Below are positions 23 to 37,244 of a stretch of DNA of 40,393 bases, piece by piece. The DNA is taken from the NCBI RefSeq assembly GCF_001618175.1, contig NZ_LPXN01000106.1, forward strand, positions 1-40,393, given 5' to 3'. Position 1 is the first letter of the stretch. Each line of letters opens with the position of its first letter. This DNA is from Oceanibaculum pacificum. GTDB taxonomy: Bacteria; Pseudomonadota; Alphaproteobacteria; Oceanibaculales; Oceanibaculaceae. Position numbers and translations under genes: made by a program. Under the pieces are notes generated by a model. That model worked only from the letters and a program-made list of their open reading frames with translations, had not been told where the DNA came from and ran no database searches.

Positions 23-57
23 ACGGAGGGAAAGACGGGGAAGATCGGGGGAAATAA

Positions 58-156
58 GGAGACTGGCAGCGACCCGAAGCGAAACTCGTTACGGCTGCTT
101 CCTTCCGGATCTGACCGGGTTGGCGAGGACTCCGTCCGCGCCAGCCTCCCGGCCCC
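58..156 (-). ncRNA. ffs: Signal recognition particle RNA, small bacterial type (4.5S RNA)
   Basis: This is the RNA scaffold of the signal recognition particle, which binds Ffh and targets nascent membrane proteins to the FtsY receptor. The minus strand carries the universally conserved domain IV apical loop, GGTCAGATCCGGAAGGAAGC, at about 116-97. The flanking arms pair: GGGAGGCTGGC at about 150-140 with GCCAGTCTCC at about 67-58. This gives the usual single long hairpin of roughly 100 nt. The exact ends are inferred from this pairing. No strong T-tract follows the 3' end. The gene diverges from nudC. Confidence 0.93.
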
Positions 157-35386: not shown

Positions 35387-35896
35387 TTAGCGGCACGCCC
35401 CGATGGAGCCTGCCGCGCATTCGTGCTTTCCGTCGATCCAGGTCGCCCCGCTGAGATCGGCGCGGTAGAAATCGGCGTCGCGGATTTCGGCGCCGGTGAA
35501 GTCGGCATTGACCAAGATGGCGTTGTGGAAGCGCGCGCGGGCCAGATTCGCCTCGCGCAGCGACGCGCCGGTCAAATCGGCACGGGAGAAATCGGCATAG
35601 GTGAAACGGGACCGATCCAGTGTCGCGCCCGTCATCTTGGTTTCCAGGAATAAGGCCCGCAAGCCTTCGACCTCGGCGAGATTGGCGCCGGACAGATCGC
35701 TGCGGTTGATGCTGGCCTGGCGCAGGGTCGCTCCCGTCAGATCGACATTCGCGAGTTCCTGCCGGTTGACGTTGCAGCTTCGCCAATCGACGCCGGGCGC
35801 CGGCGGATCACCACAGCCCGCCAGGGCGGACTCGGGGACCGGCAACGCAAAACCGGCGGCGAGGGTTATGAGAAGCAAGCATCGCTTTATAGGCAT
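35387..35896 (-). CDS. Pentapeptide-repeat protein, probable lipoprotein
   Basis: This exported protein of 169 residues has a right-handed quadrilateral beta-helix. The start MPIKRCLLLITLAAGFALPV leads to the lipobox-like LAGC at residues 25-28, so lipid anchoring of Cys28 is likely. From about residue 45 the sequence runs as A(D/N)LxX pentapeptide repeats (DLTGA, DLSGA, NLAEV, DFSRA, DLTGA, NLARA, DFTGA, DFYRA, DLSGA), roughly twenty in all. Two ATGs lie at 35896 and 35899 and another at 35932; none has a clear Shine-Dalgarno, and 35896 gives the cleanest signal peptide. It converges with the CoA-ester lyase, 12 bp apart. No function can be assigned. Confidence 0.82.
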   Translation of the reverse strand: MPIKRCLLLITLAAGFALPVPESALAGCGDPPAPGVDWRSCNVNRQELANVDLTGATLRQASINRSDLSGANLAEVEGLRALFLETKMTGATLDRSRFTYADFSRADLTGASLREANLARARFHNAILVNADFTGAEIRDADFYRADLSGATWIDGKHECAAGSIGACR

Positions 35897-36019
35897 CATG
35901 GCCCAGCGAATGTAGCGCCTGATCCCCGACATGCAATGCGCAGGGGAACAAAACCGTCATTTCCTGGCGGTCACGGCGCCTGCATCCACCAGATGTAGTT
36001 GTGCGAGGCCGGCGCTTTT

Positions 36020-36090
36020 GATAAAAAGAAGAGGCGTCGAGGATGCAGGCAGTAATGCCCGGCCCGGGAAGGCAAATCCTCGACGCCTCT
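36020..36090 (-). terminator. Strong intrinsic terminator or sRNA 3' end
   Basis: AGAGGCGTCGAGGAT at 36030-36044 is perfectly complementary to ATCCTCGACGCCTCT at 36076-36090 (15 bp). The 31-nt interior contains a smaller GGCA-GTAA-TGCC hairpin and a CCCGGCCCGGG palindrome. On the minus strand the stem is followed at once by TCTTTTTATC, a good U-tract; on the plus strand only CTTTG follows. No coding gene on the minus strand ends here, so it may end a small RNA or act as a leader attenuator of the pentapeptide gene. Confidence 0.7.
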
Positions 36091-36464
36091 CTTTGTCGGA
36101 GTCCGGGCAGACCGGAGACCCCGCAGCCTCACAAGCAGCATCGACGCGCGGCCCGAAGGCCGAGGCCCAACGGCCCCACCCCTTATCCGCGATCCCGGCG
36201 ACAGTCTTGGCACGGACCCGCCGGACGGATAGTGGCTCGCCACCCTCCCCGGTCCCCGCATCCGCCGATGCCGCTCCGGCAGCGCCCGAAGGCAATTCCG
36301 AAACGACCCGACTTCCAGCCGGGACGAGAAAGGCCGAAAAGACGGCGGCTTCCGAGGAAGCCCGCCCCGCTGCATCCGCGTCGCCAGCCCGGAACAGGTC
36401 CGACCGGCGAGCGGCGCGGCGGTGTCTTTCGCCGAGCGCTTATGCGCTGAATAAGATGCTGTGG

Positions 36465-36560
36465 GATTTTTCTTTCGCCAACAACAGAAAAAATGCATGA
36501 TCTCGCATGTTTTTACTGGCATTTTTATAATTCTATTTCATTCACTTACCGTTCACCGTT
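36465..36560. other. AT-rich tract
   Basis: Runs of T and A (GGGATTTTTCTTTC, GAAAAAATGCAT, GTTTTTACTGGCATTTTTATAATTC) stand out against the GC-rich surroundings. The tract could be a promoter region firing leftwards, a DNA-bending site or an unwinding element; it contains the repeated word GCATG at 36494 and 36504. Confidence 0.6.
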
Positions 36561-36676
36561 TCATCCCCAGCCGCCCGCGCCGATATCTCATCCCAAACCA
36601 CCGGAATGATTGGGAAAATTACGCGCCTGGCCGAGTTATCCCAACCTGTGGATAAAGCCCCGCCAATTCATCCCCG
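36561..36676. promoter_or_regulatory. Cluster of DnaA-box-like 9-mers
   Basis: One perfect box, TTATCCACA, lies on the minus strand at 36647-36655. Degenerate plus-strand relatives are TCATCCCCA (36561-36569), TCATCCCAA (36588-36596), TTATCCCAA (36636-36644) and TCATCCCCG (36668-36676), each with two or three mismatches. TTATCC and GGATAA around 36636-36655 also form an inverted repeat. Function as a DnaA-binding region is inference. Confidence 0.35.
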
Positions 36677-36760
36677 GAACGGCCCTTGCATCGCCTGGAC
36701 CGGCCCGCACAGCGCCGATCGGCCCGGTCGCATGGCTTGGTTGCGACGCGGCATGGCGCG

Positions 36761-36789
36761 TTGACTTGATGCCGGGCGCGGTCTAAATC
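36761..36789 (+). promoter_or_regulatory. Predicted sigma-70-like promoter of sdhCDAB
   Basis: TTGACT at 36761-36766 and TAAATC at 36784-36789 are separated by 17 bp, about 55 bp before the sdhC start. The -35 box is good; the -10 box is weak. Confidence 0.45.
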
Positions 36790-36845
36790 AGACGCGACGC
36801 TTACACGGCGATTTCATTCCATCGCATCACAGCGAAGGGGGCACC

Positions 36846-37244
36846 ATGCAGACCGGCGGTAAGGCGGCACGTCCGCTGTCACCCCACTTGCAGATTTATC
36901 GGCCGCAGATCACCTCGATCCTGTCGATCCTGCATCGTATCACGGGCATTGCGCTGTCGGTCGGCACGCTGATGTTGACCTGGTGGCTGCTGGCCGCCGC
37001 GGCCGGCCCGGATTATTTCGCGACCGCGCACGGCTTCATCACCTCCTGGTTCGGCTGGCTGCTGCTGTTCGGCTGGTCGGTGGCGCTGTTCTACCATCTG
37101 GCGAACGGCATCCGGCATCTCGCCTGGGATGCCGGCTGGGGGTTCGAGATTCCGCAGGTCTACACCACCGGCTACGCCGTGCTGGCGGCGACCGCGATCC
37201 TGACGGCGATCGCCTGGATCGCCGGCCTGACGATGGGGGGCTGA
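36846..37244 (+). CDS. sdhC: Succinate dehydrogenase cytochrome b556 subunit
   Basis: This membrane anchor of complex II carries part of the heme b and ubiquinone sites. The 132-residue protein has three membrane helices. It opens with RPLSPHLQIYRPQITSIL and contains SILHRITG (S27, R31, quinone-site residues in E. coli numbering). The heme-ligand histidine is most likely H84 in FYHLANGIRH. GAAGGGG precedes ATG 36846. It is the first gene of sdhCDAB, with 3 bp to sdhD. Confidence 0.95.
   Translation: MQTGGKAARPLSPHLQIYRPQITSILSILHRITGIALSVGTLMLTWWLLAAAAGPDYFATAHGFITSWFGWLLLFGWSVALFYHLANGIRHLAWDAGWGFEIPQVYTTGYAVLAATAILTAIAWIAGLTMGG

Follow-up and report, generated by a model that had tools for sequence, protein, structure and literature searches.

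Which transcript is served by a perfect terminator stem at which no gene appears to end? Such a stem lies on the minus strand of a 40,393-nucleotide stretch of the Oceanibaculum pacificum genome (hereafter the window). An earlier note, made from the letters alone, had proposed that it ends a structured RNA, which could be an independent small RNA or a leader with an attenuator. The stem was described exactly: all 15 of 15 positions pair between arms at 36030-36044 and 36076-36090, which lie 31 nt apart, and TCTTTTT follows on the minus strand. Nor was any minus-strand gene found to end there, as had been claimed. Seven inverted repeats measure 13 bp or more and have their arms within 60 bases of each other; this one alone is fully complementary. 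Of 200 first-order Markov copies of the window, 4 contained a perfect stem of 15 bp with such spacing, a figure that refers to the stem alone, before a T-run or conservation in three other species is required.

The best reading, which we consider quite probable, is that the minus strand of the region encodes a structured non-coding RNA that is specific to this lineage and transcribed on its own, with a length of up to about 430-530 nt in four species. Its support here consists of conservation, position, a strand preference, some paired changes and the lack of a coding pattern, and we infer its transcription, 5' end, loop pairing and targets.

The locus and its conservation within the genus

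The window's copy of the locus (W; contig C106 of an incomplete 3.89-Mb genome in 181 contigs, also referred to as G000) was compared with those of three other genus genomes (G001, G002 and G003), which were the closest relatives drawn, the remainder being no closer than class. The pentapeptide gene, the RNA region and sdhC follow one another in the same order in all four genomes, and the region stands free between genes with its own intrinsic terminator, which is a trait of intergenic trans-acting sRNAs. The features of the locus are as follows.

35387..35899, minus strand: pentapeptide-repeat lipoprotein gene, neighbour outside the RNA (Pfam PF00805, E 1.4e-24)
35909..35936, minus strand: TTGCAT-16-TACATT, a promoter-like element of the pentapeptide gene that lies downstream of the terminator and has counterparts in the other three genomes
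36018..36100, minus strand: T domain, i.e. terminator stem, two hairpins within its loop, then CTTTTT (arms, 60/85 invariant columns, model R1)
36020..36451, minus strand: proposed non-coding RNA gene (synteny and sequence kept in 4/4 genus genomes; non-coding indels)
36023..36028, minus strand: CTTTTT tail of the predicted intrinsic terminator, identical in 4/4 genomes
36062..36073, minus strand: invariant GCCUUCCCGGGC hairpin with a C-rich loop, within the T domain, identical in 4/4 genomes
36174..36240, minus strand: P domain, i.e. two helices, outer and inner, with an invariant loop on top (alignment A3, hand pair count, models R2 and R3)
36206..36216, minus strand: invariant P loop UCCGUGCCAAG (alignment of the four genus genomes)
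36452..36560, minus strand: AT-rich tract (GC 0.35), expected site of the RNA promoter (composition; strong promoter-like match in G001 only)
36846..37244, plus strand: sdhC, divergent neighbour and possible target (Pfam PF01127, E 3.6e-35; pairing tests)

The 36020 side of the proposed gene is set by the U-tract, whereas the 36451 bound is the first hairpin picked by eye, and the 5' end may lie about 90 nt further upstream. The minus-strand gene downstream codes for a pentapeptide-repeat protein, in agreement with the earlier note, and a LAGC lipobox was read from its sequence by eye; the start codon at 35899 is our choice, the longest ORF starting at 35932.

Identity over the whole intergenic region was 0.60 between W and G002 and 0.64 between G003 and G001, and about 0.46 in both cross comparisons made (W with G003, G002 with G001). 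The 5' GC-rich part shifts in length by tens of bases between species, and further 5' conserved blocks occur within each species pair.

Covariance models scored 90-105 bits (R1) and 66-82 bits (R2) on their source genomes. Each had strong matches in 4 of 385 class genomes, a draw from a larger group under stricter filters, and these were the four genomes of this genus from which the models had been built, with a single place per genus genome in the R1 search. Weak matches to R1 and R2 in 9 and 19 further class genomes, respectively (E 0.003-0.1), are read as chance. When GTDB 220 was scanned with the loop pattern, at one genome per species and in a collection that may lack records close to the window's genome, six stretches came up. 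One of them was taken as real, namely JAHJHR010000012.1, which we take to be the G002 contig, its R1 score being identical. A stretch from an Ilumatobacteraceae MAG (L066) that scored 24.6 bits with R1 (E 3.4e-5) was rejected, since by eye it has neither such a stem nor a T-run; its score is biased because the stretch was picked for holding the loop.

A search against Rfam 15 (4227 families), whether limited by the gathering cut-off or extended to E 10, yielded no family in the region, only matches at chance level, and the loci of the three relatives gave nothing near the cut-off. The covariance-model search proposed in the earlier note was thus negative in W and in the three relatives. CC0196 matched W weakly (E 0.93) but none of the relatives, and was discarded. 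At the gathering cut-off the only match in the whole window was the bacterial small SRP RNA (RF00169, positions 57-147, minus strand, 54.3 bits).

Two predicted structured domains and their strand

In the four-genome alignment of the T domain, 60 of the 85 columns are invariant, GCCUUCCCGGGC and CTTTTT included. The C-rich GCCUUCCCGGGC forms a 12-nt invariant hairpin inside the 31-nt terminator loop. The stem has 14 of 20 pairs that never vary, one U-A pair that is replaced by C-G in G001 and one G-C pair that becomes G-U. Its covariation score was equalled by 124 of 500 shuffles, so that the alignment by itself is poor evidence. The match of the domain between G002 and G001, 81% over 70 bases, falls within the spread of the terminator control described below.

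The P domain lies about 75 nt upstream of the terminator domain, and its UCCGUGCCAAG loop is invariant while the stems are altered on both sides. Counted by hand, in an alignment that we adjusted and in which one loop gap was placed manually, all four sequences are paired at 11 of 14 positions. Paired changes include A-U to G-C at 11-66 and C-G or U-G to G-C at 18-45; position 9-68 is A-U or C-G, with W unpaired. The copy in W is without two of the seven outer pairs. Apart from the sequences it was built from, a model of W and G002 alone (R3) matched the syntenic G003 hairpin best (16.2 bits, E 0.014 in 13 kb, filters off). The G001 hairpin scored 14.0 bits, no better than a chance match in the same search (13.9 bits); with default filters and E 0.001 neither the G003 nor the G001 hairpin was reported. 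On the joint alignment A4, the fold that RNAalifold picked for the P region was a different one. The comparison of related genomes for compensatory changes, which had been suggested earlier, thus yielded some paired changes in the T stem and the P domain among four sequences, and covariation is weak because only four sequences exist.

The GC content is 0.706 at 36091-36451, 0.349 at 36452-36560 and 0.66 across the window. Both the AT-rich tract upstream on the minus strand and the GC-rich character of the roughly 370 bp between it and the terminator were correctly noted before. That this stretch holds many small hairpins throughout is weakly supported. The folding-energy z-score of the window's copy was -4.65 for the minus strand and -2.93 for the plus strand; without the terminator, the minus-strand z-scores were -1.95 in W, -1.11 in G002, -2.18 in G003 and +0.04 in G001. 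Much of the folding signal therefore stems from the terminator, and the part upstream of it folds little better than shuffles. A terminator-like hairpin at 36347-36362 (minus strand), followed by GCCGTCTTTT, lies within the proposed RNA; such hairpins occur in about the number expected by chance.

The region as a whole had a lower z-score on the minus than on the plus strand in all four species, in G003 only slightly. The P domain has four G-U cells if read on the minus strand versus two on the plus strand, and the U-run is kept on the minus strand in the four genomes.

Transcription would start in or just after the AT-rich tract, which is the only plausible promoter region for the RNA. In G001 this tract contains a strong promoter-like match, TTGATA-17-TACAAT, that is absent from the other three genomes, and no conserved promoter for the RNA was found. 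A strict promoter scan of 35850-36900 was empty, and says little since it missed even the promoter-like sequences of the pentapeptide gene and sdhC. The transcript would then cross the fast-evolving GC-rich part and the hairpin domain with the invariant UCCGUGCCAAG loop and end at the sequence-conserved intrinsic terminator, whose loop holds the C-rich GCCUUCCCGGGC hairpin; the 3' U-tract may serve as an Hfq site. Both loops are conserved in sequence, one of them on drifting stems, which points to recognition of another molecule by the loops, probably by pairing with mRNAs close to the start of translation. Loops that stay invariant while their stems drift are described for Rhizobiales sRNAs (PMC3927594), which makes pairing between loop and mRNA the most likely mode of action.

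Alternative readings of the region

A narrower form of the preferred reading, with overlapping odds, is that the functional RNA comprises only the 3' part: the T domain, on its own or together with the P domain, about 80-230 nt in all. Such an RNA would arise by processing or from an internal promoter that escaped detection, and the GC-rich 5' part would be passive. This would account for the concentration of conservation in the T and P domains and for a 5' part that folds little better than shuffles and shifts in length by tens of bases. However, no AT-rich promoter was seen by eye within the GC-rich stretch, and the blocks conserved further 5' within each species pair also speak against it. 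We regard this form as possible, on balance doubtful.

An ordinary intrinsic terminator, possibly bidirectional, could insulate the divergent genes and stop spurious minus-strand transcription with no functional RNA involved. The terminator does provide much of the folding signal, and some genes' terminators are strongly conserved in this genus. As a control we collected 74 terminator-like hairpins in 22 stretches of G002, of which 14 had orthologous flanks in G001; the matched part of the hairpin ranged from 0.22 to 0.92. Three of the control hairpins were checked by gene context: two lie in ORFs, while the third follows a porin-like gene (G002 L107 16530-16575) and is conserved, with 37 of 43 bases the same in G001, so that another terminator in these genomes is as conserved as the one studied here. 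For another hairpin, close to the locus, the match did not extend past 14 bases. Since control terminators can be conserved, conservation of terminator sequence alone is not decisive. Against a plain terminator stand the invariant 12-nt hairpin in the 31-nt loop, the separate P domain with its invariant loop and changing stems, and the fact that no minus-strand gene was found to end there, and we consider it unlikely.

The terminator might instead belong to an attenuated leader and decide whether transcription enters the pentapeptide lipoprotein gene 120 bp downstream, which lies on the same strand and directly downstream in all four genomes. This gene has a promoter-like element of its own, which argues against such a leader. 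The -35 counterparts are TTGCAT in W, TTGTCT in G002, TTGCAA in G003 and TTGCAT in G001, each 16 bases before a TACATT that lies 8-9 bases before the start codon in all four genomes. If this pair acts as a promoter, as its sequence suggests, the pentapeptide mRNA is likely to be nearly leaderless. Moreover, no antiterminator pairing with the 5' arm common to the four genomes was seen by eye. Attenuation thus appears very unlikely, and of the two options left open in the earlier note the independent RNA fits better than the leader. A conserved structured minus-strand RNA, which both options share, is supported by the synteny in all four genomes, some paired changes, the conserved U-tract and the lack of a coding pattern.

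The AT-rich tract and a DnaA box led us to consider a chromosomal origin or another DNA-level element. A palindrome TTATCC-N8-GGATAA at 36636-36655, read in the alignment of all four genus genomes, contains an exact DnaA box, TTATCCACA (36647-36655). In many alphaproteobacteria oriC is located near hemE. In G001, the GC skew, sampled in 19-kb stretches, changes sign between 160 and 200 kb and hemE is at 189 kb, but the locus is at 314 kb. The skew of G002 turns positive at about the position of hemE (534 kb), with the locus at 624 kb. The distance of hemE and the skew change from the locus is thus 125 kb in G001 and about 90 kb in G002. With a single exact DnaA box in the window's copy, and neither a skew switch nor a cluster of DnaA boxes at the locus, an origin is largely refuted and a DNA-level element of this kind is highly improbable.

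The palindrome lies about 100 bp upstream of a promoter-like sequence of sdhC (36758-36790, TTGACT to TAAAT, read by eye), which is a 33-bp block kept in G001, G003 and G002. The palindrome may be a site for DnaA or another regulator common to sdhC and the RNA.

A protein-coding region missed by annotation is scarcely credible. Both strands have ORFs of 112-189 aa through the region, but 15 of 17 indels in two pairwise comparisons (8 of 10 and 7 of 7) are not multiples of three, and substitutions have no clear codon-position bias. Conserved small ORFs were not found; the best pair reaches 0.39 of the self-score and spans the terminator. The codon pattern through the stem in relatives that the earlier note had named as counter-evidence was sought and not seen.

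Possible pairing partners and relation to known RNAs

Exact complements of the P loop occurred at 15 places and those of the T loop at 8 places in the four genomes, the four loci themselves counted. They included two orthologous pairs, both for the P loop and neither common to the four species. One lies inside a gene of G003 and G001 only, which we take to be rfbD from its N-terminus, and the other is on the wrong strand of a signal-peptide gene in G000 and G002. No target common to all four species was found.

The gene for SdhC, divergent from the proposed RNA, is the one lead to a target. In G001 and G003, positions +11 to +20 of the sdhC coding sequence can pair with the T loop and positions +21 to +28 with the P loop; the two sites abut, and their order suits an antiparallel duplex. 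In W the same two adjacent sites were chosen, but the T helix has a mismatch and the P helix is shorter, and in G002 the P site alone was chosen. With a two-site score that was selected after the match had been seen, and with crudely called ORFs as gene starts in G001, sdhC beats all 258 G001 gene starts, and the G003 gene scores the same. In G002, however, 24 of 342 gene starts did as well as sdhC, and in the window 5 of 31. For the T loop alone, 0 of 258 gene starts were as good as sdhC of G001 and G003, and 57 of 342 as good as that of G002 and W; the corresponding figures for the P loop alone were 15 of 258 and 73 of 342. With the loops in the opposite order only 2 of 258 gene starts were as good, i.e. 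sdhC also ranks high, and 3 of 60 sets of permuted loops still placed G001 sdhC in the best 1%.

Conservation in codons 2-10 of sdhC is unremarkable, with 6 of 8 identical compared to 59 of 104 overall. A previous duplex test did not separate W and G002 from shuffled mRNA, since 143-153 of 200 shuffles were as low. In G001 and G003 the shuffles that were as low numbered 3 and 27 of 200, respectively, for the T loop and 47 and 48 of 200 for the P loop, whose best duplex was at another site.

A stronger hypothesis, which we hold to be improbable as a whole, is a new RNA family confined to a single isolated alphaproteobacterial lineage and arranged back to back with sdhC, in which both invariant loops bind adjacent stretches of the sdhC mRNA. 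The loops would cover about +11 to +28 (codons 4-9) in antiparallel order. If true, this pairing would tie the synthesis of succinate dehydrogenase to whatever controls the promoter of the RNA, and the RNA would be an alphaproteobacterial TCA-cycle riboregulator whose gene adjoins that of its target. On the preferred reading, the candidate would be a structured RNA outside the Rfam families from a lineage with no relatives between genus and class in the draw, and the two exact loop motifs and the neighbouring operon provide handles for testing its role.

The candidate is familiar as a kind of RNA, and as a family it is absent from Rfam 15. RNase P, tmRNA and 6S RNA are structured RNAs of comparable size but are located elsewhere: RNase P and alpha tmRNA were identified at other places in all four genus genomes and 6S RNA, sought in the window's genome only, on its contig C142. 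This agrees with the earlier failure to see landmarks of the three at this locus.

The candidate also resembles the trans-encoded sRNAs of Rhizobiales, in which loops are kept while stems change and some of which have a Rho-independent 3' end (PMC3927594). These alphaproteobacterial sRNAs include the families RFMSmelC023, RFMSmelC291 and RFMSmelA075/A099, some of them with CCUCCUCCC anti-Shine-Dalgarno loops, and the likeness lies in invariant loops on variable stems, in some of them a terminator, and a C-rich loop (PMC3927594). Several loops with the anti-Shine-Dalgarno CCUCCUCCC were not found in the candidate, in which the conserved hairpin reads GCCUUCCCGGGC, once. It differs further in its other loop motif (UCCGUGCCAAG), in having one place per genus genome and no Rfam match, and probably in its greater length.

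RyhB is an sRNA that represses sdh, and both NrrF and RyhB act on sdh from distant loci. For NrrF, too, sdh repression is described (PMC5586341). No such RNA was found in the titles and the beginnings of abstracts of open-access literature on sdh and alphaproteobacterial sRNAs. The candidate resembles NrrF and RyhB in the possible control of succinate dehydrogenase, with an sdhC pairing that stands out in two of the four species only, and differs from them in that its gene adjoins sdhC.
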